From positions 1 through 23,672 of IMG/VR virus record IMGVR_UViG_3300032288_000530: a stretch of DNA of 23,672 bases; one strand, 5' to 3'. Below are positions 3,001 through 23,466 of the stretch, piece by piece. The DNA comes from a virus. The position numbers and the translations under genes were made by a program. The notes beneath the pieces were generated by a model. The model was not told where the DNA came from and searched no databases. It saw only the letters and a program-made list of their open reading frames with translations. The stretch's first letter is position 1. Every line of letters starts with the position of its first letter.

Positions 3001-4895
3001 TCAACAACGCGAACTGGCTGGGTGATCCGCAGCGACTGGCCGCGCTCAAGGCGGCAGTGGACAACGCCCGCACCGACGGTGAACGCGCCCGCGCGCAACG
3101 TGCCTACGACGAATACGCCCACATGTATCGGTACATGGCGGGCAGCCGAGGCGACAAGACGGTCACCATCGACGGCAAGGAAGTACCCACGCTGGGCCGA
3201 GGCGAGGACTACCGCGAGGAGGCCAAGAAGGTACTGCGCTGGTACAGCGAAACATCGAACATCAGCGACTCGACCGAGGACATGCTGTCGGGTGAAGCCG
3301 GGTCGGCGCTCAAGCTGGTCACGGTGCTGATGCAACTGGGTGGTTCGGTCGCCACGGCGGTGGTCAACCTCGCATCACTGGCCACGCACTCGCTCCCCTA
3401 CCTGTCGTACTACAACTCCAAGCGCGGCTTCGGCGGTGGCTATGGCGAGGCCAAGGCATCGGCCGCGCTGTTCCGTGCAGCGGCGGCGGTGAAGAACTTC
3501 CAACTGTCGGACCCGGCGTTTCTGGAGAAGATGCTGCGCGATGGCAGCTACGAGCGGTTTGGGCTGACCGAGGATGAGGCGGTGTTCCTATTCGAGCAGA
3601 CGGAGCAGGGCACGCTGCAGGCTGCGCAGTTCAACGCACTGGTGGGCACCGCACGTGGCAAGGTGTTCAACAACCGAGCGCAGGCGGCGGTGCAGGCGTG
3701 GATGTCGATGTTCTCCTACACCGAGCAGTTCAACCGGCGCGTCACGGCACTGGCTGCGTACCGGCTGGAGAAGGAGCGGCTGCAGGCACAGGGTGTGACC
3801 GACAACGCAGAACTCATTGCTGTAGCCACCGAGGCAGCGCGCACTGCGGTCAACACGTCGCAGGGTGAGTATGCGATGTTCAACCGCCCGGAGATGGCGC
3901 GTGGCAACGTGCTGCAGTACGTCTTCATGTACAAGCAGTTCGTCATCGTCACCGTGCAGTTGATGCGGGCGCTCCCGCCCAAGGGTCAGTTGCTGATGCT
4001 GGGCTTCCTGCTGCTGGCATCCGGGCTTCGCGGGCTGCCGTTCGCCGAAGACATCTTCGACATCGTGGACACCATCGCTCAGAAGCTGGGGTTGAAGATG
4101 GCCAGTGTCGAGAAGGAGATCTCCGAGTGGGTGGATGCAGTGGCTCCGGGCATGACGCCGTACCTGATGCGCGGGATCATGGACCGAATGACAGGGGCTA
4201 CGGTGTCAAGCCGTCTTGGGATGGGTGATCTGATTCCCCTCACCGGAGCGTTCCGGGCTGGTGCCGATCCGACGCGGGAGATGTCTGACTTCGCTGGTCC
4301 GGTGTTCTCGGGTATCTCCGGGCTGGTCGGCATGGCAGGCAGCTTCGCCAAGTACGGGGCCGAGACTGTGGGGCTGCGCGACGACGTGACCTCGATCAGT
4401 GGCATCCTGCGCGACTCGCCGATTGCAGCGGTACGCGCCTTTGCTGACGCCTATGCCTACGCTGACAGTGGCATGGTCACCAACGCACGGGGGCAAGTTG
4501 TGTCCCGCGAAGCACCGTACCATGTGATCGCGGCTCGGGCACTGGGCTTCTACCCGGCGATTGCCAGCGAGCAGAACGACATCGTGCGGCTGTCCAAGCA
4601 CGTGGCCGAGTACGCCAAGGCGCTCAAGGCTGAGTATGTTTCTGCGTATGTGAAGGCGAAGCTGGCCGACGACGGTGAGCGGATGTCAGAGATTGCCGAC
4701 GACGTGCGCGAGTGGAACGAAGCAGCCCAAGGTACCGGACTGCAGATCAGCACGTTCCTGCGCTCGGCCAACCGGGCGGCGCTCGAAGCGTCCCGCCCGA
4801 CCGTGATGCGCTACCTGAAGTCCGCGCCCAAGCAGATGCGTCCTGAGACCATCGAGTTGTTGAGGCTCAATGGTCTGGAGGACGAGGTACGCTAG
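1..4895 (+). CDS. Giant phage polyvalent/virion protein with zincin-like metallopeptidase motif (5' end outside window)
   Basis: The frame is open from base 3 to the TAG at 4893-4895, giving 1630 residues in the window. The first ATG is at 165, but 54 sense codons precede it without a stop and read like ordinary protein, so the true start lies upstream of the window. Counting from ATG 165, a zincin signature (LAHETLGHFG) puts H256, E257 and H261 in an HExxGH motif, followed by an EAIEEYLADNA stretch that could give a further acidic ligand. Long charged helical stretches fill the middle. A hydrophobic segment (LLMLGFLLLASG, about residue 1278) precedes a C-terminal region resembling the large-polyvalent-protein domain LPD38 (key stretch SSRLGMGDLIPLTG). 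Such proteins are typically packaged in podovirus-like virions and ejected with the DNA; that role is inferred. It ends the plus-strand block and converges on the replication operon. Confidence 0.85.
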   Translation, partial: ARYKGGARQGEPKPWFDYAVSRNLLPSIKARITNLPPEYRKQPEATEKKPSAERMAQTPEALLGTLIDQLIARVREATSLTRPVRFQQQSYSNIVELAKQLYAQTSKAGRNYIVRGVPLKDYFKTDGSPKMLKSGGRYMITNEELTADQQRKLEADQRAEAKALAEEFRQATEDELRRLEEAPSDLRQPMGARPAGGKKGYVVEDEWDDPDGMFYRDDGTPLTTKIPQGRVRLLVKNFLAKLRAKPNTFVYANVADLKARNPDLYRRAAAARPEGDFDTTNAVGYSFGPNVIIFSDFVRTEQQLKFVLAHETLGHFGFKGIVAQKDLAAVLNRIYDADPDVQAAVDAMVANRGMSKLEAIEEYLADNAADLDVSLIARIWNVLKNALNKLGFTFQDDEARYFVNLARKYVRRGEGGNFFNVRSMVGDMQALEQARLDGRYARVNAGDMGSRIFAAGAMNRRYGGTGGLRGAMDAFAKGAYGRRRDVPGMISRLLEQVQTLDNKARRSYGLNRLYRILEQQQQYARTLLSKYQRMTSFTTSADLGVLKKGVTEADKERAGELLARAALLRAEQTTDELIKSFKPLVYVDAMGNVVVDTTVREQIEKAGRVTAEEFRKGFEITYTDGSKVRFQYDVKENSDEWRIYNELRDTVNDSAIDLMLANYESAQAEVKRVLGELNTGRRGTNVFTQDDLAAIRKVAEMYQNMRYAGSDVASAGVELKAKARKDSEEFLIAFGRALFDDDVYAAWVGDPKITGTMKEDFAKFQEAEFDDLRAALPSLRAKLSKADKEARVKGTSGVVQKAVRDLFLFDLQSRNADYYAKRTILGSYVPFSRRGTEQVTLVAVDSRGNPVALDEGVRSALPYFQFDSRSEALATAEELDKTFGGDNEYVLLDENGNEVTVTFQTEVSRTRQSPDLTEAVNFNEFVYVLNRLNVNLAPEARERIVTTLTNQNARARKNLQRSGTEGWDKDVVRSVSEHLETTAHVAAKKLFRHRLDDLLLNNANWLGDPQRLAALKAAVDNARTDGERARAQRAYDEYAHMYRYMAGSRGDKTVTIDGKEVPTLGRGEDYREEAKKVLRWYSETSNISDSTEDMLSGEAGSALKLVTVLMQLGGSVATAVVNLASLATHSLPYLSYYNSKRGFGGGYGEAKASAALFRAAAAVKNFQLSDPAFLEKMLRDGSYERFGLTEDEAVFLFEQTEQGTLQAAQFNALVGTARGKVFNNRAQAAVQAWMSMFSYTEQFNRRVTALAAYRLEKERLQAQGVTDNAELIAVATEAARTAVNTSQGEYAMFNRPEMARGNVLQYVFMYKQFVIVTVQLMRALPPKGQLLMLGFLLLASGLRGLPFAEDIFDIVDTIAQKLGLKMASVEKEISEWVDAVAPGMTPYLMRGIMDRMTGATVSSRLGMGDLIPLTGAFRAGADPTREMSDFAGPVFSGISGLVGMAGSFAKYGAETVGLRDDVTSISGILRDSPIAAVRAFADAYAYADSGMVTNARGQVVSREAPYHVIAARALGFYPAIASEQNDIVRLSKHVAEYAKALKAEYVSAYVKAKLADDGERMSEIADDVREWNEAAQGTGLQISTFLRSANRAALEASRPTVMRYLKSAPKQMRPETIELLRLNGLEDEVR

Positions 4896-7735
4896 ACCAC
4901 CTGCAACTGTCCGAGGGCTAAGTTGTCCAGCGCTTCATCGGCGTCGGACAACATGCCTTGCAGTCTCGGATGGTTCAGGTTCAGTCCGATTACATAGGAC
5001 TGGCCCAGCTTGATCGGCGTGTCCTTGGCCAGATACGCCTTGCTGGACTTCGGGGTAGCGAGGATGCCCTCGCTGGTGAACTCGCCGATGAACGTCTTGT
5101 AGTCGCCGCCGCGCTGTGCCAGCCAGCGCCGCAAGTGGCTGCGGTCCAGCATCACGGTGCCGTTGGCCACGGGGTCAGCCGAGGACTTGCGGAAGAAGTC
5201 GAAGCGTACCCTGACCTCGCCGCGCGGCACCCGGTTGTAGTCCATCGTGGGCTTCTGCGTACCGGTGTGGAACACCTGCACCTGCATGTCGGCTGCCTCG
5301 TTCAGGTACTCGCTCAACAGGTCGAACGCATCGAGCTTGAACTCGGACACACTGCGCCGGATCGCACCGATCTGGGATAGCACCCACTCGATACCTGTCC
5401 GGTGGTCGAAGCTGATTAGTCCCCAGTCGCTAGCCAATCTTCCAGCAAGATGTGCGAGGATGATAGCCTGCTCCCAGTAGCGCTCCTCGCCGGAGAACTG
5501 TGATTTGTACTCCCGATGGAACTGCTCGGTCGCCTCGGCAATCGCAGCCCGTATGCCAGCCTCGCCCATCTCAAGCAGTCGCGTGATGAACTCGCGGCCG
5601 ACGTGGCCATAGTTGGTGGTGATGAACTCGTAGATCCTGCGGCCTGCCGTGCTGTCACGGGTGAAGATCTTGCTGGCTGGGACGCCGACCTCAAGGATAC
5701 GGGCGATCTGCGCGTCGGTATCCAGACCACTGGCAATGAGTTTGGAGTTGAGCGACTTGTTGGTGGACACGACCACCGGTATTGCCCACGTCTTGGCGTC
5801 ACGCTCCTCGGAGTTGCGGTTCATCCGCGCCTTGTCGCGGCCTTGGCTGACCCAGTAGGCGAAGTCGCCCACCTCCTTGTCATCCATCATCGTCACTTCG
5901 TCGATGGTCATCGGCATGTGCGAGTACAGACCCATGCGTCCGAACAGCGAGTTCTGCGTGAACTTGGCTGCGAAGTGCAGCTTCTCGGGGTTGCCGTAGA
6001 TCGACTGGATCCACATCTGGGCCAGCGACTTGCCACCACCGGTCGGGCCGTACAGGGATACCGTCAGCCCCTTCAGTCCAGTGAACGCATACAGCGGGCC
6101 GGACAGACCCACGGCAAGTGCGAACATGTGGGCACGTAGATCCGCTTTCTCCAACAGGCTGGTGAAGTTGACCCACGCATCGCGTGAGCCTGCGGTATGC
6201 CACAGTTCATGACCCAGCCGGGCCGAACCTGATGCGAGGTTGATGGACTCCTCAGTAACGGAGCCATCGGGGTTGCGCCGCAGAATCGTGTCGCCGATGA
6301 CGAACTGGGAGAAGTTCTCCTTCCACCCCATCGTGGCGTACAGGTTGGTCATCGCACGCTTCTGCCGCAACTCGTCCATGTATGAGCGCAGCATGTGTTG
6401 GAAGTACCCTGTCTGGTTGCGGTTGTGCAGCACGATGCCTTGGTCGGCAATCACGGACGAGAAGTCGCGGTGCCCGTCAGTGAGCAGCGCCTGCCGCATC
6501 ACCAGTTCCTGCCAGCCGACGTGTGGTCGGTTCCAGCAGTAGCGCACCGTCTCGTAGCCCAGCGACTCGTCCCGGCCATACGCCACGGGGTAGATGTCGA
6601 AGCTGCATACGTCGATGTCGGTGTCGTCGATGGTCACCTTGATGCCGCTGGTGGTCCGCTTGAACGGGCGGGGCATCGGGATGTCGGTGGCCACGGCGAC
6701 TGGCGTATCTTGCGCTGCAGCAACCTCCGCGTATTGCACACCCAGCCGGGCCGGGGTGCCCACCTTGTCCTTGAAGCGGCAATTCTTGCAGCCCGAGGAT
6801 CGTAGCTCCTCAAACTTCTTGCAGGTTGTCGGGCCAGTCGTGGCCGCCTGCCAGTGGTGCAGCTTGCGCAGCGTCTCGTTCGGGTCGTAGCCCGGATGGT
6901 TCTCCGACCACGACAGCGCAGTGGCTTCCGGGTCTTGGCAGTGTGCGGCGATACCGATCAGTGCGTACCAGAACGGCTCGTCCACATCACCTTGGTTCTT
7001 CACACCCCAACTGATCTGCTGGCATTTCGATGCCACGACGGTGGCGTTGGTGGGTGGGAAATCCTGCTGCACCTGCAGCGCTTGTGCCAACGCACTGGTG
7101 GTTGTCTGCCTCGACTGGCTCACCGGCTGAGCCACCATGTACGCACTGAGGCAGGCTGCCATCTGCTCAACGGCCACCGGGGCTGCGTCGAGCAGCATCT
7201 TGACCTTGGTGCCGCTCTTGGGGTTGGTCGTGCCCACCGGCCGCAGTACGCGGGCACTGTCGGCAGGCACCGCTGGATCTATGGCGAAGCCCTTGTCGCG
7301 GGCTGCAGCCTTCATCGCTTCGGCCAGCGGCTTCCACCGCACCGGCTCCAGTTCCTCGGTCAACACCCAGTAGACGTGCAGCCCGTTGCCTGAGTGGATG
7401 ATCAGTGGCTTGGGTAAGCTCATCTGCTGGACGAACGCGCCCAGTGCTGCCACCCCTTCCTTCCACGACGGGAAGGGTTTGTCCGTGCCGCAGTCGACAT
7501 CCAGTGCGATCACCTTGGTGGTGCGCACATTGTCCTGCTTGCGGCTGCCCTTCTCGACGAACGAGGAGAGGGCGAAGTATGTGTTGTTGCCGCGCTGGTC
7601 GAGTCCGACCACCGCCTTGGCGAGATCATCTACCGTGGAGAAGAATCCCTGCCGCCGACCGTCTGGGTTGATGACGGTGGTGACATAGAAACCTGTTGAC
7701 GGTAGAACCCGCTGAAGGAAGTTCAACGTGTCCAT
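4892..7735 (-). CDS. Primase-helicase: AEP-like primase domain, Cys cluster and P-loop helicase domain
   Basis: A 947-residue protein. The N-terminal 200 residues look like an archaeo-eukaryotic-type (RepB/PrimPol-like) primase: LDVDCG with D79 and D81 as metal ligands, SGNGLHVYW with H120, and DSARVLRPVGTTNP with basic residues R162 and R165. A segment around 275-332 (WSENHPGYDP, then GPTTC, C316 and C319) matches the Cys-containing linker common in phage primases. The C-terminal half is a DUF927-like P-loop domain with Walker A GPTGGGKS (563-570), Walker B TIDEVT (about 610-615) and a sensor-like STNKS (657-661). It probably makes primers and unwinds the fork. ATG 7735 is preceded by an AGGGG ribosome site four bases away. 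It is the last gene of the minus operon and its stop overlaps the stop of the convergent virion gene. Fold assignment is by motif only. Confidence 0.85.
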   Translation of the reverse strand: MDTLNFLQRVLPSTGFYVTTVINPDGRRQGFFSTVDDLAKAVVGLDQRGNNTYFALSSFVEKGSRKQDNVRTTKVIALDVDCGTDKPFPSWKEGVAALGAFVQQMSLPKPLIIHSGNGLHVYWVLTEELEPVRWKPLAEAMKAAARDKGFAIDPAVPADSARVLRPVGTTNPKSGTKVKMLLDAAPVAVEQMAACLSAYMVAQPVSQSRQTTTSALAQALQVQQDFPPTNATVVASKCQQISWGVKNQGDVDEPFWYALIGIAAHCQDPEATALSWSENHPGYDPNETLRKLHHWQAATTGPTTCKKFEELRSSGCKNCRFKDKVGTPARLGVQYAEVAAAQDTPVAVATDIPMPRPFKRTTSGIKVTIDDTDIDVCSFDIYPVAYGRDESLGYETVRYCWNRPHVGWQELVMRQALLTDGHRDFSSVIADQGIVLHNRNQTGYFQHMLRSYMDELRQKRAMTNLYATMGWKENFSQFVIGDTILRRNPDGSVTEESINLASGSARLGHELWHTAGSRDAWVNFTSLLEKADLRAHMFALAVGLSGPLYAFTGLKGLTVSLYGPTGGGKSLAQMWIQSIYGNPEKLHFAAKFTQNSLFGRMGLYSHMPMTIDEVTMMDDKEVGDFAYWVSQGRDKARMNRNSEERDAKTWAIPVVVSTNKSLNSKLIASGLDTDAQIARILEVGVPASKIFTRDSTAGRRIYEFITTNYGHVGREFITRLLEMGEAGIRAAIAEATEQFHREYKSQFSGEERYWEQAIILAHLAGRLASDWGLISFDHRTGIEWVLSQIGAIRRSVSEFKLDAFDLLSEYLNEAADMQVQVFHTGTQKPTMDYNRVPRGEVRVRFDFFRKSSADPVANGTVMLDRSHLRRWLAQRGGDYKTFIGEFTSEGILATPKSSKAYLAKDTPIKLGQSYVIGLNLNHPRLQGMLSDADEALDNLALGQLQVV

Positions 7736-7780: not shown

Positions 7781-8059
7781 CTACTGGTTCAGTATTGCAA
7801 GGAGGCGCTCCTTGCGCTGCTTCTGGGTGGATGCGATCACCTCGGGCATCGGCCACCCATGGTCGGTCATCACCGCCAGCAGTCGCTTCAGCATCACCCG
7901 CACTGCCGCATCATTCGACTTGCGAAGGGCTCGCCCCTTCACCCAGCCATAGTACGTCATGCGGGACACTCCCAACAACTCGGCCATGTCCGAAGTCGTC
8001 AGGAGCATGTGCTTGCGTAGCGCCTCCACCCGGCCGAAGTCAAGCGGCTTAGGCGTCAT
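7781..8059 (-). CDS. Small HTH (Cro/CI-like) DNA-binding regulator
   Basis: A 92-residue protein. A longer reading starting at 8095 is possible, but ATG 8059 has GGAGG nine bases upstream and gives a start that overlaps the previous stop by 11 bases, as is usual in this operon. Residues about 20-44 (LTTSDMAELLGVSRMTYYGW) form a clear helix-turn-helix of the Xre/Cro type: a first helix ending at the GVS turn, then the recognition helix. The rest is basic and helical without a recognisable oligomerisation domain. It may bind the repeat-rich control region at 22905-23345 or a late promoter; neither is shown. Its place between the SSB candidate and the primase-helicase means it is made late in the transcript, which would suit negative feedback. 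The HTH call is firm; the target is unknown. Confidence 0.75.
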   Translation of the reverse strand: MTPKPLDFGRVEALRKHMLLTTSDMAELLGVSRMTYYGWVKGRALRKSNDAAVRVMLKRLLAVMTDHGWPMPEVIASTQKQRKERLLAILNQ

Positions 8060-15984: not shown

Positions 15985-16348
15985 CGAACACCCCGAACTT
16001 GGCCCGTAGCTGCACGCTCCTCGCTGTCAGCACACCATCAACAGCCAGCAACACGTTCTCAACTGTCGGCTGTCGGCGGGGGCTCATGAACGTAACCTCG
16101 GCGGTTTTGACGAAGCCCACCAGCAATTCAGGTGGGAACTCGTTGTCACGCATGGACGTGTACAGCAGCGTGATCCACCGATCATGCGCCCACTGTGGTG
16201 CGTCCCATACCGACTGACCTCCACGTTCCTCTGCCACCTGCTTGCACAGGGTATCCAGCACCCCGAGCTTGGCACGTACCTTGACACCGTACTTGAACCG
16301 GCGCAAGGCACGTAGCCACTCAAGACGACGTGCCTTGTTTACCGTCAT
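15971..16348 (-). CDS. Unknown protein with an internal repeat (125 aa)
   Basis: ATG 16348 overlaps the TGA of the gene before it (ATGA). The N-terminus is very basic (NKARRLEWLRALRRFKYG), and the middle has tryptophan-rich helices (VWDAPQWAHDRWITLLY). Two short stretches are alike: VRAKLGVLDT near residue 24 and LRAKFGVFDE near the C-terminus, with matching DNA (about 26 of 34 bases) 270 bases apart. I do not recognise the family. It is located between a 210-residue unknown gene and the protein with the SSB-like tail. Confidence 0.75.
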   Translation of the reverse strand: MTVNKARRLEWLRALRRFKYGVKVRAKLGVLDTLCKQVAEERGGQSVWDAPQWAHDRWITLLYTSMRDNEFPPELLVGFVKTAEVTFMSPRRQPTVENVLLAVDGVLTARSVQLRAKFGVFDEAT

Positions 16349-16977
16349 ACGCCCAGCTTGGCTGCGGTGGACAGCGCGGTGAGCTTGTTGAGATCCACGT
16401 CCAGTTCAACCTCCCGCTTGGTACGCTCGGCCACCTGCCGGTGCCGGTCCTTCACATCCTCGGGGATCAGATCCCACAGTGGGGGCCATGCCTTGAGCGC
16501 CGGAGCCAGCGTGGTGTAGGCGTTGATCACCTTGTTCACTGCATCGACGAACTCATTCCGCCGCTCCTCGGCTGTCCGAACTCGGTGAACGTATGCATCC
16601 ACCTCGGCCTTCAGTTCCTGCCAGTCAGGATGCTCAGTAAGGGTCACCTCGTCCCGGTACTGGACCTTCTTTGCGAACTTGTCGGTAGCCCACATCACCA
16701 TAGGCCACGGGCGTGGACCACCCAGTCCGAACTCCAGCGAACACTGCGTCATGCCGACACCCACCACGATGATGTTCTCGCGGTAGTTCAGCCACCCCTT
16801 GGGCACTTGGTTGAGGATGGGGAGCACATCGCTGAACATGATGTCGTAGATGCGCGGACCCCACGTTGCTGCATCGGGCCTGCTCTCCTTGGCCCGCTTG
16901 ATGGCGGGCTCCATCTTCGCCCTTGCGTTGGCGCGGATCTGGTCTTGCAGGGCGCTGCTGAAACGAACGGTTGCCAT
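16345..16977 (-). CDS. Conserved phage protein of unknown function (210 aa)
   Basis: ATG 16977 is chosen because AGGAG lies six bases upstream; a longer frame from 17031 would overlap the previous gene and lack a ribosome site. The protein starts MATVRFSSALQDQIRANAR and is mostly helical, with a central WGPRIYDIMFSDVLPILNQ and a glycine-rich turn (EFGLGGPRPWP). A long charged helix follows (AEERRNEFVDAVNKVINAY). I recall similar sequences in other tailed phages, always as hypothetical proteins. No catalytic motif is seen. Confidence 0.8.
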   Translation of the reverse strand: MATVRFSSALQDQIRANARAKMEPAIKRAKESRPDAATWGPRIYDIMFSDVLPILNQVPKGWLNYRENIIVVGVGMTQCSLEFGLGGPRPWPMVMWATDKFAKKVQYRDEVTLTEHPDWQELKAEVDAYVHRVRTAEERRNEFVDAVNKVINAYTTLAPALKAWPPLWDLIPEDVKDRHRQVAERTKREVELDVDLNKLTALSTAAKLGV

Positions 16978-16978
16978 G

Positions 16979-17287
16979 TCAATCTCCTGTATGTTGTAGC
17001 TTGGAACCCACTCCGATGCGGTGCTTGGCACACATCACCTGCACCGCTTCCTTCACCGTGCTGAACTGCTGCCAACTACCGGTACCCAACCCATGCCTAT
17101 CGACCATCCGACCTGAGTACGTAGCAGCATGTGTGTAGATGTCATACTGCTTGGTTAGCTGGAAGGCAGGAGTGACGTAGTGCTGTACCAACACCGACCA
17201 CTCACTACCCATGAGGTTGTGTCCTGTCCGCACTGCCTGCTTGGCAGACTTACCGATGCGGTACGGCTCCGGTAGCTGGAGTGTCAC
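16979..17287 (-). CDS. Unknown small protein (102 aa)
   Basis: The frame starts at GTG 17287, which overlaps the TGA of the VWA gene (GTGA), and stops one base before the next ATG. A later ATG (residue 26, MGSEWSVLVQ) is possible, but the overlap supports the GTG. The protein is rich in His, Tyr and Thr (QHYVTPAFQLTKQYDIYTH), with a C-terminal KEAVQVMCAKHRIG. No family is recognised. Because its translation is coupled to the VWA gene it may be a partner of that protein, but this is only inference. Confidence 0.7.
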   Translation of the reverse strand: MTLQLPEPYRIGKSAKQAVRTGHNLMGSEWSVLVQHYVTPAFQLTKQYDIYTHAATYSGRMVDRHGLGTGSWQQFSTVKEAVQVMCAKHRIGVGSKLQHTGD

Positions 17288-18432
17288 ATCAACACCACTT
17301 CACCGAACGGTGCCGTGCCCTTCTCGGTGGACACCCACAGTACCGGGGCATCGGGCTGCTGCCCGAAGCTGCTGCAGCACAGGTCAGTCAGGAACACGAT
17401 GGCGACCGGCTCGATGCCCAGTTCCACGATCTTGTCCATCACCGGAGCGAAGTCGGTACCGCCACCGCCGTGGGGCTTGATGTCCAGTTCATCATCGGGT
17501 CCGTAGGATTCGACGTGGCTAACCTCACTGTCGAAGTACAGCACGTGTATACGAGCAGGAGCCAGATCATCCTTGACAACGCGGATCTCCGAAGCGAACT
17601 GATTGATCGTGTGCTGGTCGATTGAACCCGAACAGTCCACGGCGAACACCACCTCACCCATCACCTCGCCACTGACGGTGGGCAGGTAGATGCCTTGCGG
17701 CAGGAAGCGGCGGTTGAACCGGGCGAAGGATCGCTGGTCGGTACGTGCCTTGACGAGGAAGCGTTGCATCACCTCACGCCAGTCGACCTTGGGTTGCAGC
17801 ACCTCATCGACAAGACGTTTCAGGTTGGCTGACAGCTTGCCCATCATCTTGGCTGCCTGTGCAGCCTGAGCGACCTTGACCTTCCACTCGGCCTGCTCCT
17901 GAGCCTGCTCGGCAGGGCTGCCCTCGCCGTCCTCGCAGTTGTCCATCGGCCCACTGCCATCACCGCCGTCGTCGTTCATCTCCGGCAGGATGTTGTAGAT
18001 ACCCTCGCTGGTGCCGCCACCCGCTTGGTAGATCGCTGCGTTGTGCAGCCCGACCTTGGGCATCTTGCCGATACCCTCATCGACCAACAACTTGTTGATC
18101 ACGTAGTCGGCAGCATGGTTCCACCGCTTGTGTTGCCGCTCACCACGTCGGTAGTTGTGTTCCATCATGGGATGGAAGCACTCATGGGCGACGAGGAACT
18201 TCAACTCCTCGTCGTTCAACTCGCTGACGAAGTGCGGGTTGAACAGCACCCGCTTGCCATTGGTGGCTGCCGTGGGGATGCTGTAGTCGAGGCTGAACGG
18301 CATGTTCAGCGCCACGGTGCCGACGAACGGATGCTCCAGCACCAGTCCAGTCTTCGCCTTGGACAGCCGGGTCATCAGCCTCTTGGTTTCCGCCTCGGAA
18401 AGGGGCGGTTGCTGCGGTGCAACGGTAGTCAT
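17284..18432 (-). CDS. DUF2201-type protein: N-terminal HExxH metallopeptidase-like domain plus C-terminal VWA domain
   Basis: A 382-residue protein. The N-terminal domain has VAHECFHPMMEH (H83, E84, H87) followed by WNHAADYVIN (H106, D109), the usual layout of the DUF2201 putative metallopeptidase. A Gly/Asp/Glu-rich linker (about 150-185) leads to a long helix. The C-terminal VWA-like domain has an intact MIDAS: VDCSGS (D266, S268, S270), GGGTDFAP (T326) and FLTD (D350). ATG 18432 follows AGGAGG by four bases. Proteins of this type sit next to MoxR ATPases in many phages and bacteria, and one follows here two genes upstream. The pair probably acts as a protein-remodelling machine; the target is unknown. 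Confidence 0.9.
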   Translation of the reverse strand: MTTVAPQQPPLSEAETKRLMTRLSKAKTGLVLEHPFVGTVALNMPFSLDYSIPTAATNGKRVLFNPHFVSELNDEELKFLVAHECFHPMMEHNYRRGERQHKRWNHAADYVINKLLVDEGIGKMPKVGLHNAAIYQAGGGTSEGIYNILPEMNDDGGDGSGPMDNCEDGEGSPAEQAQEQAEWKVKVAQAAQAAKMMGKLSANLKRLVDEVLQPKVDWREVMQRFLVKARTDQRSFARFNRRFLPQGIYLPTVSGEVMGEVVFAVDCSGSIDQHTINQFASEIRVVKDDLAPARIHVLYFDSEVSHVESYGPDDELDIKPHGGGGTDFAPVMDKIVELGIEPVAIVFLTDLCCSSFGQQPDAPVLWVSTEKGTAPFGEVVLM

Positions 18433-18443
18433 ATTGCCTCCTG

Positions 18444-18797
18444 TCACGACATCCTGAGAACTTCGACGTGTTGTGCGTCAACGTTGATGTGGGTAGAGGC
18501 TGACCTCCTACCCCAGTGGTGGCACGTCCATGCTGCGATGGCACCACGCAGTCGGACGAGATCGAACTCACCGACCGGGATAACCGCCACGTCACCGACA
18601 TCCATCCCGATGATGAACGGCTGGAAGTAGTTGCTCAGTGCGTGCACCGGGTAGAAGCTGCCGCTACGCTTCTTGGGTGCAGCCACCTCCAGCACACCGA
18701 ACTCCTGCCCCTCGGGGGTGATGATCTTGTACTGCACACCCCACTTGTCCATCATTGCTGCCCACTGCTGGATACTCCGCATCTGTATGTCGTGCAT
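18444..18797 (-). CDS. Unknown protein between the DUF3150-like and VWA genes (117 aa)
   Basis: ATG 18797 shares bases with the previous TGA (TGATG) and follows GGGAGG by nine bases. The sequence has an N-terminal helix (RSIQQWAAMMDKWGVQY), a beta-rich core (KIITPEGQEFGVLEV, VGDVAVIPVGEFD) and a C-terminal helix. No motif is recognised. It is embedded in the MoxR to VWA block, so it may belong to the same machine, perhaps as an adaptor. That role is unproven. Confidence 0.75.
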   Translation of the reverse strand: MHDIQMRSIQQWAAMMDKWGVQYKIITPEGQEFGVLEVAAPKKRSGSFYPVHALSNYFQPFIIGMDVGDVAVIPVGEFDLVRLRGAIAAWTCHHWGRRSASTHINVDAQHVEVLRMS

Positions 18798-19678: not shown

Positions 19679-20665
19679 TTAGAACAGCACGTCCTGATGC
19701 TTGATCGACCACTTCGTAAACGCTGCCGTGTTGGCCAGATCGGGGTTGCGACGGCAGGCATAGCTCACGGTCAGCACGCTGAACTCCGGTGCCATGCGTT
19801 CGCAGTACGTCGTCACCCTGTCGAAGTTCGCCTCGGTGGCACGCTGGGAGATCGCACCAGACAGGGCATACAACGTTGCCGGATCCGTCGGCACATCTGC
19901 CGTAGTCGGGTTGAGCAGGATCGCATCGGGGTTGGGCAGCTTGCGGAAGATGCGAACGAAGCCCACGAACTCGGCTGCTGCACCCTCACCGACCGCACCC
20001 TTGAAGCTCTCGAACTCAGCCTCGGAGGGGACCACACCCAGCAGGTCGGACACACCCTCCACCCAGCTACGGGGCGTGGGGTTCTGCTGACGCTGCGGGT
20101 CGTAGTCGTGCAACAAGTTGGGACGGAAGCGGATGAAGCTGATCACCTCGGGCTTGACGTTGTTGTCGATGGCCCATGAGGTCCAGTCATCGAGGTGCGT
20201 CTCAAGCTCGTAAGTGTTCTCCCGGTTGCTGAGATGACCCAGCACACGGTTGGCACCAGCCCTGTCCGACTGCCGGTTACCCGTACTGACCACCATCCAC
20301 CCCTCGGGCATCGGCGTGCCGTGCAGGTTGCGAGCTTGGCAGATATTGGCCAGAACCTTCTGCAGGTCGGTGCTGGCTTGGTTGCGGTCATCGAAGCACA
20401 GGATGCCACGCTCCGGTGCCTTGCCCTTGACGGGGAACCACTCGGGCAGCTTGTACTGCAACGTGTCATCCCCACTGGGGTACAGCACGCCGAAGTCCTC
20501 GACCAGCATCGTCGGCATGTGCCGCTCGATGTACGGCACATCCAACTCCTGTGCAACTTGCTGCACGATGGTGGTCTTGCCACCGCCGGGCGGGCCTTCG
20601 ATGCAGACCGTACGCCGGATGGGGAACAGCGACTTCAGGGTCTCCTTCATCAACGTCGAACGCAT
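19679..20665 (-). CDS. MoxR-type AAA+ ATPase
   Basis: A 328-residue AAA+ protein with Walker A GPPGGGKT (24-31), Walker B ILCFDDRNQAS (D92, D93) and a sensor-1-like STGN (127-130), then NRVLGHLSNRE with candidate arginine-finger and sensor residues. The DDRNQA phrase has a second Asp where MoxR proteins usually have Glu (DE), so the catalytic base may be altered. The rest is a helical lid ending in SIKHQDVLF. MoxR ATPases work with VWA-domain proteins as chaperones that insert cofactors or remodel complexes. Here the gene is followed by the DUF3150-like and VWA genes in the same order as in other phages I recall. The ribosome site is weak; the start is ATG 20665. Confidence 0.9.
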   Translation of the reverse strand: MRSTLMKETLKSLFPIRRTVCIEGPPGGGKTTIVQQVAQELDVPYIERHMPTMLVEDFGVLYPSGDDTLQYKLPEWFPVKGKAPERGILCFDDRNQASTDLQKVLANICQARNLHGTPMPEGWMVVSTGNRQSDRAGANRVLGHLSNRENTYELETHLDDWTSWAIDNNVKPEVISFIRFRPNLLHDYDPQRQQNPTPRSWVEGVSDLLGVVPSEAEFESFKGAVGEGAAAEFVGFVRIFRKLPNPDAILLNPTTADVPTDPATLYALSGAISQRATEANFDRVTTYCERMAPEFSVLTVSYACRRNPDLANTAAFTKWSIKHQDVLF

Positions 20666-22489: not shown

Positions 22490-22783
22490 CTACGCCAGCT
22501 TGATGACCGTCACCTTGCCCGGCTTCTGGGAGTCCGGAAGGGCAGGCATCAGTGCCAAGTAAGGGCTGTTCTCATAACTGTACATCAGCACCGGCACAGT
22601 GCCCTTGGGGTCCGGCTTGAACGTCTTGACCGGAGCCTTCATCTTCTTACCGAAGGCCAGCATGGTTTCGTACAGTTCGACCACGTTGTCGGTGTTGAAC
22701 TTCCCCTCGGGATCGGCCTTGACGGTGATCTCCTTCTTGGTGTTGAGGACGACACTAACGTTACCCTTGTAAATCTTTGCCAT
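22490..22783 (-). CDS. First gene of the early operon, unknown function (97 aa)
   Basis: ATG 22783 follows AAGGAG by six bases; a longer frame up to 22903 runs through the GC-rich leader and starts with an Ala/Arg string that is not protein-like. The protein has beta strands (KIYKGNVSVVLNTKKEITVKA), a helix (DNVVELYETMLAFGKKM) and Pro/Lys-rich turns (APVKTFKPDPKGTVPV), then YSYENSPYLALMPAL. No family is recognised. As the most promoter-proximal gene it is probably made first and strongly, like host-takeover proteins in other phages, but this is inference. Confidence 0.8.
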   Translation of the reverse strand: MAKIYKGNVSVVLNTKKEITVKADPEGKFNTDNVVELYETMLAFGKKMKAPVKTFKPDPKGTVPVLMYSYENSPYLALMPALPDSQKPGKVTVIKLA

Positions 22784-22909
22784 GATAGGCTCCTTACAGG
22801 TTGTATAGAGAGGTGAAAGCCCGGCAGATCGCCGGACCCCCAGTCTCGCCCAGCCGGGCCGCGGTGTCAAGTTCCCGGCCCGCCGCCGGGCCGCCGCCGC
22901 CATAAAGGC

Positions 22910-22945
22910 GTAAACAATCTATATTTTACATGTAAACAATCTACG
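22910..22945 (+). repeat. Two direct copies of GTAAACAATCTA flanking a TTTACATGTAAA palindrome
   Basis: Copy one (GTAAACAATCTATAT) is at 22910-22924 and copy two (GTAAACAATCTACG) at 22932-22945; their starts are 22 bases apart, about two helical turns. The palindrome TTTACATGTAAA (22925-22936) overlaps the start of copy two. This is a typical operator layout. Confidence 0.75.
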
Positions 22946-22959
22946 TTTGGATCGTAGAA

Positions 22960-23028
22960 TAGATCACAAATAGATCGTGCAAGTCGTTGATTTATAAGGA
23001 TGTTGCGTTGCACAATCTATTTGATCTA
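22960..23028. repeat. Long inverted repeat (cruciform-like), arms 22960-22982 and 23008-23028
   Basis: The left arm begins TAGATCACAAATAGATCG and ends TGCAA; the right arm is TTGCACAATCTATTTGATC followed by TA. They pair with one mismatch and a two-base insertion in the left arm. The 25-base spacer is AT-rich (GATTTATAAGG in its middle). Direct repeats of ATCTACGTTT lie on both sides (22940 and 23024). Confidence 0.65.
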
Positions 23029-23129
23029 CGTTTTTGGAAGTAATGTCGCACTCCGGAGAGTGAAAGACCCTACAGTTTAGTCGGGTATTCCGCGCGGTGG
23101 TGGGAACATTATAGCTAAAAACATGGATT

Positions 23130-23153
23130 ATCTATATCATATAGATTGTTTAC
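23130..23153. repeat. Palindrome ATCTATAT-C-ATATAGAT joined to an inverted copy of GTAAACAATCTATAT
   Basis: Bases 23130-23146 form an odd-centred palindrome with eight-base arms. Bases 23139-23153 (ATATAGATTGTTTAC) are the exact reverse complement of 22910-22924. The two together mark a likely protein-binding site. Confidence 0.7.
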
Positions 23154-23212
23154 AGAGTAAGCTTAGCTCTCTCTCTCTGGCAAGTGGCTGATTCCCCTCA
23201 TCTTTTTGGAAC

Positions 23213-23224
23213 TTTACATGTAAA
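23213..23224. repeat. TTTACATGTAAA palindrome, second perfect copy
   Basis: Identical to the 12-base palindrome at 22925-22936. A TGTCAAG follows six bases after it. Confidence 0.7.
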
Positions 23225-23270
23225 CAAGTGTCAAGTTACGCGATCTAAATTCCGAAAATCGTGCTGTGTT

Positions 23271-23298
23271 TAAGTTTACATGTATTGACGTAAACTTA
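23271..23298. repeat. Dyad TAAGTTTAC-N10-GTAAACTTA
   Basis: Nine-base arms at 23271-23279 and 23290-23298 are perfect reverse complements and contain the same GTAAAC half-site as the other repeats; the spacer starts ATGTA, so a partial third TTTACATGTA palindrome is included. Confidence 0.7.
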
Positions 23299-23427
23299 GA
23301 TTGTGTCAGCTTATACACTTCTAGCCATCAACTTGACGATTTCCCTTTACAGCGCCGTGTAATGCGCGTTTAGAGGGGCAAGCCATGACCCCCCGACGTA
23401 TAGTCATCTACAATTTTACAAGTACGC

Positions 23428-23466
23428 AGACAAAAGAAAAGCCCGCTCACCTTGCGGTGGCGGGCT
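23428..23466 (-). terminator. Strong intrinsic terminator on the minus strand
   Basis: On the minus strand the stem AGCCCGC, CACC, loop GCAA, GGTG, a one-base bulge, then GCGGGCT is followed at once by TTTTCTTTTG. Plus-strand positions: GCCCGC 23441-23446, CACC 23448-23451, GGTG 23456-23459, GCGGGC 23460-23465, and the A-run 23432-23440. It ends the transcript of the small membrane-protein genes to its right and insulates the control region from them. Confidence 0.9.

Follow-up and report, generated by a model that had tools for sequence, protein, structure and literature searches.

A conserved, repeat-dense AT-rich region with putative IHF sites as the probable replication origin of a group of phages with a DUF927 primase-helicase

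Origins of Gram-negative iteron plasmids (pSC101, R6K and RK2 type) combine repeats, an AT-rich segment and IHF sites. At the lambda origin, the O protein occupies repeated sites beside an AT-rich segment and recruits host DnaB via P. To our knowledge, the origins of tailed phages that carry their own primase-helicase have rarely been mapped. In the SaPI and SCCmec elements, the helicase Cch of SCCmec and SaPIbov1 Rep are relatives; Rep is an initiator that loads itself and reads the origin iterons through its C-terminal domain (PMC7581432). In pRN1, a small DNA-binding protein (orf56) is encoded beside the primase-helicase orf904 (PMC4234260).

The window analysed here is a 23,672-nt stretch of viral DNA, positions 1-23,672 of IMG/VR virus record IMGVR_UViG_3300032288_000530. 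An earlier note had pointed to an AT-rich repeat block at 22905-23345 and offered two interpretations, binding sites for one regulator, perhaps a helix-turn-helix (HTH) protein of the phage, or an iteron-type replication origin. Our analysis supports the iteron origin and leaves the HTH option the weaker of the two. We consider it probable that the block is the replication origin of the phage, with the repeats serving as iterons, the C-terminal domain of the primase-helicase as their most likely binder and IHF bending the DNA. An origin of this kind best fits the position of the block, its lowest GC content, its confined and co-changing repeats, its IHF sites and the presence of a helicase resembling SaPI Rep and Cch. 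As with SaPIbov1 Rep and the SaPI origin, and with SCCmec Cch, a DUF927-type, presumably self-loading initiator helicase occurs together with clustered short repeats that its C-terminal domain would be expected to bind, and the element would thereby link phage origins with those of SaPI and SCCmec elements. Unlike in those systems, the helicase carries a primase-like part fused to its N-terminus, the hosts are presumed to be Gram-negative, and the putative origin carries putative IHF sites and lies ~15 kb from the helicase gene; this last point speaks against the origin reading, as SaPI origins adjoin rep. With the pSC101, R6K and RK2 type the region shares repeats, an AT-rich segment and putative IHF sites, but no RepA/TrfA-type initiator was identified in the phage and no DnaA box (TTWTNCACM) was found in the region in the window or in six related genomes, such boxes being common but not universal in iteron origins. 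A phage-coded candidate initiator and repeated sites next to an AT-rich segment recall lambda, whereas this phage brings a primase-helicase of its own, and its origin would lie outside the initiator gene. As with orf56 and orf904 of pRN1, the HTH gene adjoins the primase-helicase gene; in contrast to the repeat cluster described here, a stem-loop that follows orf904 is presumed to be the origin of pRN1.

A sequence scan located GTAAACAATCTA at 22910(+), 22932(+) and 23142-23153(-), the three copies that had been claimed, with no further exact copy anywhere else in the 23.7-kb record. The 15-base inverted pair at 22910-22924 and 23139-23153 proved to be a perfect match, the two perfect palindromes are copies of TTTACATGTAAA at 22925-22936 and 23213-23224, and the GTAAAC dyad, previously placed at 23271, is a GTTTAC/GTAAAC dyad at 23274-23295. 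These repeats are genuine and not due to chance: among 5000 dinucleotide shuffles of the 441-nt block, none contained a 12-mer occurring three times and none reached the ten TAGAT words observed on both strands (mean 1.4), while two perfect 12-bp palindromes were reached in 44 (0.9%). The conserved repeat core is TAGATTGTT(TAC), a 9-bp TAGATTGTT unit present in both orientations, with additional related sites at 22960, 22971, 23019, 23028, 23134, 23247 and 23297. The copies described earlier therefore stand, but with TAGATTGTT as the unit and ten TAGAT sites they were an undercount. The TACATGTA palindrome is missing from the homologous region of most relatives in the alignment and is thus a local feature rather than a conserved element; TTTACATGTAAA is mostly specific to this phage and seldom occurs in the corresponding region of relatives. 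A pattern scan with TTTACATGTAAACAAT returned 33 viral contigs, including the near-identical contig 3300033571_002196. The sole other one that was read, L108, gave no sign of the homologous region, so that the TTTACATGTAAACAAT palindrome by itself is not diagnostic. L108, an apparently unrelated viral contig, contains at 1780-2000 a dense array of its own, made up of TTTTGACATGTCAA, GTTTACATGTAAACAATT and repeated GAACAGTTTATAGCC and adjoining an AT-rich stretch, which also looks origin-like.

Using the nearby MoxR-type ATPase as an anchor, we took 80 related viral loci; the phages they belong to measure about 50-60 kb. Where a locus reached far enough upstream, it nearly always had an AT-rich stretch 1.3-4.1 kb before the ATPase gene. 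An nhmmer profile search begun with the region as it stands in the window detected a homologous, equally placed non-coding region in 64 of the 80 (E 1e-116 to 1e-18). Removal of near-copies reduced these 64 regions to 44 non-redundant ones. Their alignment revealed that the blocks keep one order. First come an entry block, ACGTCGGGGG, then ACACAATCTA and an AACTTGACA...TGTMAAGTT dyad, followed by an AATCAACCACTTR element, an AT-rich GATATAGATGATATAGATAAT block and T-runs, and finally CCAAAAACGTAGATTATTTAGATYGT, a second AATCAANNNNTTR element and two further copies of TAGATTGTT. A short repeat is present in multiple copies at one locus together with an AT-rich segment, the region being the lowest-GC 300-nt window genome-wide in all six complete or near-complete genomes (54-57 kb). 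Three of these six have terminal overlaps of 59-127 nt, indicating that they were assembled as circles. Early genes point away from the region for ~19 kb and late genes run in the opposite direction. GC skew, which had been suggested as a check of the origin, switches at the region but also tracks gene direction, and hence does not confirm it. An Rfam search gave no match. No DNA similarity to phage records was detected; the phage collection searched held no DNA-similar isolate and no close cultured member of this group, and its closest DUF927 primase-helicase has 26% identity. A search of bacterial genomes for a host returned a single contig in an actinobacterial MAG, which is probably misbinned.

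The conserved element reaches slightly further than 22905-23345, to about 22910-23402 as judged from nhmmer homologues and the alignment. GC content is 38% for 22905-23345 versus about 60% across most of the window. The element (22910..23402), as the whole putative origin, is given on the minus strand, the direction of the flanking early genes, as are the parts of the window listed in this and the next paragraph. It is preceded by the terminator of a small-gene operon, a hairpin with a T-run (AGCCCGCCACCGCAAGGTGAGCGGGCTTTTCTTTT, 23432..23466) that has equivalents in relatives, and begins with the near-invariant entry block TATACGTCGGGGGGTCATGGCTTGC (23378..23402). Block B (23274..23307) joins a (TG)ACACAATCTAAGTTTAC repeat site to the GTTTAC/GTAAAC dyad, within which ACAATCTA is nearly invariant, and Block C (23210..23237) is an AACTTGACA...TGTAAAGTT dyad that includes one TTTACATGTAAA and is kept across relatives. 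Putative IHF site 1 (AATCAGCCACTTG, 23181..23193) follows, and then the conserved AT-rich Block E (23108..23150), AACAATCTATATGATATAGATAATCC...TTTTT...TATAAT, a putative unwinding element with a repeat dyad. Block G (GCGACATTACTTCCAAAAACGTAGATCAAATAGATTGT, 23012..23049), with two repeat sites 9 bp apart, is among the best conserved blocks. Putative IHF site 2 (AATCAACGACTTG, 22980..22992) precedes Block I (GCACGATCTATTTGTGATCTA, two repeat sites, 22960..22980) and Block J (two copies of TAGATTGTTTAC, equal to the GTAAACAATCTA copies at 22910 and 22932; 22910..22945), both defined by repeat scan and alignment.

Beyond the element lies the promoter-like TTGACA-N17-GAGACT of the next early operon (22842..22870, with TTGACA at 22870-22865), the single match to TTGAC-N16..18-NAGNCTG in the window; in relatives the same promoter arrangement precedes the first early gene. 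The first gene after the element encodes a 97-aa protein (22490..22783) of no known family. A similar gene stands before the element in the related locus L004 (400-684), and this early protein occurs twice in tandem early operons that flank the putative origin. The setting, with a promoter on the downstream edge and a terminator on the upstream side, between two co-directional early operons, raised the main rival to an origin, namely a transcription control region in which the repeats would be operators, for example of the HTH protein, and IHF would shape the promoter of the second early operon. We judge this unlikely. No repeat cluster accompanies the second early promoter of this class, which lies ~1 kb upstream, and this makes a purely regulatory role less likely; ten sites plus two IHF sites over 450 nt would be a large complement for a single operator, and the TATAAT at 23108, within Block E, is not itself conserved in the alignment. 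The two functions are not exclusive, and an origin may also hold such a promoter.

The distribution of the repeats across genomes is consistent with an origin. In the complete genomes checked, the repeats are concentrated in the region 30-fold or more: in five genomes YAGATYRTT has 2-7 copies per ~500 nt where the remaining genome would predict 0.01-0.07, and in a sixth all five copies of TAGATAGTT lie inside the region. A generic form of the repeat gave a median of 8 sites per region compared with 0 in a reversed-sequence control. The core of the repeat changes between lineages. AGT-core sites are absent from 40 regions, 39 of which carry other cores, whereas three loci (L022, L035 and L082) carry AGT-core sites almost exclusively (17 of 19 counted), and a further lineage, L038, has TAGATTCTT instead. 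To account for the AGT type, the best MoxR tree requires two changes, of which the strong branches force only one. Since the core switches as a set between lineages (TAGATTGTT, TAGATAGTT, TAGATTCTT), the repeats appear to be sites of one co-evolving binding protein. These natural lineages with altered repeats make recognition between initiator and repeat directly testable.

Both putative IHF sites had been overlooked in the earlier note. The conserved AATCAANNNNTTR elements fit the IHF consensus WATCAANNNNTTR, as quoted in PMC10380432. Site 1 of the window has one mismatch to it and is exact in most relatives (e.g. AATCAACCACTTA), and site 2 is exact, with no other exact match anywhere in the 23.7-kb record. 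Across the 44 regions there are 60 exact matches, distributed over 38 regions, versus 2.0 expected from shuffles, while the remaining 6 regions have none, a point against the origin reading; elsewhere in the genomes they occur at about 0-0.04 per region length. In 20 of the 22 regions with a pair of exact sites, the distance between mid-points is 191-212 bp. The four free positions of the element vary and its orientation is flipped in some lineages, yet the spacing is retained. Taken from sequence comparison, this argues strongly that IHF-like binding is under selection. Conserved IHF elements imply hosts that make IHF, which would be proteobacteria; the elements suggest that the phages depend on host IHF.

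Repeats combined with IHF sites also occur at other kinds of locus. Arm-type repeats with IHF resemble lambda attP, where integrase binds the arm sites, and IHF has a part in P1 parS, which led us to consider an attachment or a partition site. Neither the tyrosine integrase PF00589 nor the ParA-type AAA_31 (PF13614) was detected in any of 20 related records, in searches whose controls were positive in 14 of 14. An attP of the tyrosine-integrase kind and a ParA-type partition site are thereby largely refuted, and we give these readings almost no credence.

Lambda cosB likewise combines repeats with IHF, having three TerS sites and one IHF site (PMC4669245), and the late-gene block starts about 1-1.5 kb from the region, which makes a packaging (cos/pac) site conceivable, at which the repeats would bind the small terminase with assistance from IHF. 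We nevertheless regard this as very improbable. The element sits inside the early block, with small early genes and their terminator before it and a promoter and more early genes after it; a lowest-GC window of the genome is not a property of cos, and cosB spans ~120 bp versus ~450 here. Moreover, closer to the late genes there is a second conserved dyad, GC-rich in sequence (GGGGGG...CCCCCC), and it is around this dyad, 755-1020 nt upstream of the region and not within the region, that several linear contigs end. Contig ends as a whole are scattered and partly clustered ~0.75-1 kb upstream. A second conserved non-coding block, ~1 kb upstream between early and late genes, reads TAACTTTACACG...GGGTCTTGCTTTAAGAGGTT...GGGGGG...CCAGTCCATGTACCCCCC (L004 60-190 and the equivalent place in related genomes, with several contigs ending near it) and is itself a candidate late promoter or packaging site.

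Returning to an origin, its candidate initiator is the primase-helicase encoded at 4892..7735 on the minus strand (947 aa), which has an N-terminal primase-like part and a DUF927 helicase domain (E 1.3e-27, above the curated cut-off). By sequence it has only two solved relatives, SCCmec Cch (5dgk, E 8e-8) and 8tch (E 5e-7), a pathogenicity-island protein that the structure search below lists as the SaPIbov1 replication-initiation helicase. In an AlphaFold2 model, the last 148 residues (~800-947; pLDDT 79) have a winged-helix-like order of elements, and a Foldseek search of 350,542 PDB chains ranked Cch first and SaPIbov1 Rep third for this part, both weakly (E 0.23 and 0.29). From sequence and model we propose that this C-terminal domain binds the repeats. 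In the lineage with shifted repeats, the primase-helicase has diverged along its whole length; changes in its C-terminal domain consequently do not stand out, and this test of coevolution is not decisive.

The HTH protein (7781..8059, minus strand), encoded directly before the primase-helicase, could be an accessory binder or a repressor. It is present in 20 of 20 relatives, which would also suit transcription control, and its model is all-helical (pLDDT 92) with weak lambda-repressor-like matches. However, its recognition helix is essentially invariant, with one M/V exchange among 21 proteins, while the sites change, and at positions conserved elsewhere the protein of the TAGATAGTT lineage shows no substitution of its own. 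Because the helix does not track the repeats, the protein is a weaker candidate for reading the core, and it may instead be a helper or regulator.

We infer the following steps of binding, bending, melting and initiation. About ten TAGATTGTT copies in both orientations would serve a phage initiator as iterons, with the C-terminal domain of the primase-helicase as the likeliest binder, perhaps aided by the HTH protein. Host IHF, at two sites about 200 bp apart, would bend the DNA and bring the repeat clusters together, and this bending would strain the AT-rich segment between them until it opens. The helicase would then load itself and prime, and the phage family-A DNA polymerase would extend. 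The element thus supplies a ready hypothesis of an initiator, its repeats and host IHF. In its fullest form, the proposal is of a chromosome-like origin far from its initiator in a tailed-phage family, where a SaPI-Rep-type primase-helicase acts on ~10 nine-bp repeats between two IHF bends and the specificities of repeat and initiator change together; this we put forward tentatively, as a serious possibility that we doubt slightly more than we believe. If true, close relatives would be mutually independent replicons.

The same layout, with another repeat, is present in the cultured Pseudomonas phage Rollin (OR577172), which its primase-helicase marks as a distant relative and which shares a DUF927 primase-helicase (the 26% identity above), a lowest-GC stretch (record positions ~300-1100), a repeat cluster and an exact IHF-consensus site. 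Nine of ten copies of its repeat AAAAGGTAG, mostly as AAAAGGTAGNAAGTTACTACCTTTT dyads, lie within 1-500, beside that stretch and partly inside it, the tenth being at the record end, and one of its two exact IHF-consensus sites (AATCAACCACTTA) falls in the same interval. Its repeat is unrelated to the one described here and a search of it for the small HTH protein found no homologue, which further weakens that protein as the repeat binder. The cluster and IHF-consensus site at 1-600 are unannotated and, by analogy, are probably the origin of Rollin.

Further features were observed in the early regions. The first early leader has GCTCTTTAACAA after a GC-rich hairpin (L004 about 305-325; also G001, G002 and G011), with variants in G006, G008 and G009, and this motif is similar to boxA, the antitermination element found in rRNA operons. 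In the early block, the MoxR-type ATPase (19679-20665) lies close to a second conserved protein (17284-18447), which is assigned to the PHROG 'HNH endonuclease' and has a von Willebrand-type look. Finally, 16345-17031 weakly matches Nucleotide modification associated domain 5 (Nmad5), with an E-value of 1e-4 that misses the cut-off, a hint that the phage DNA may be modified.
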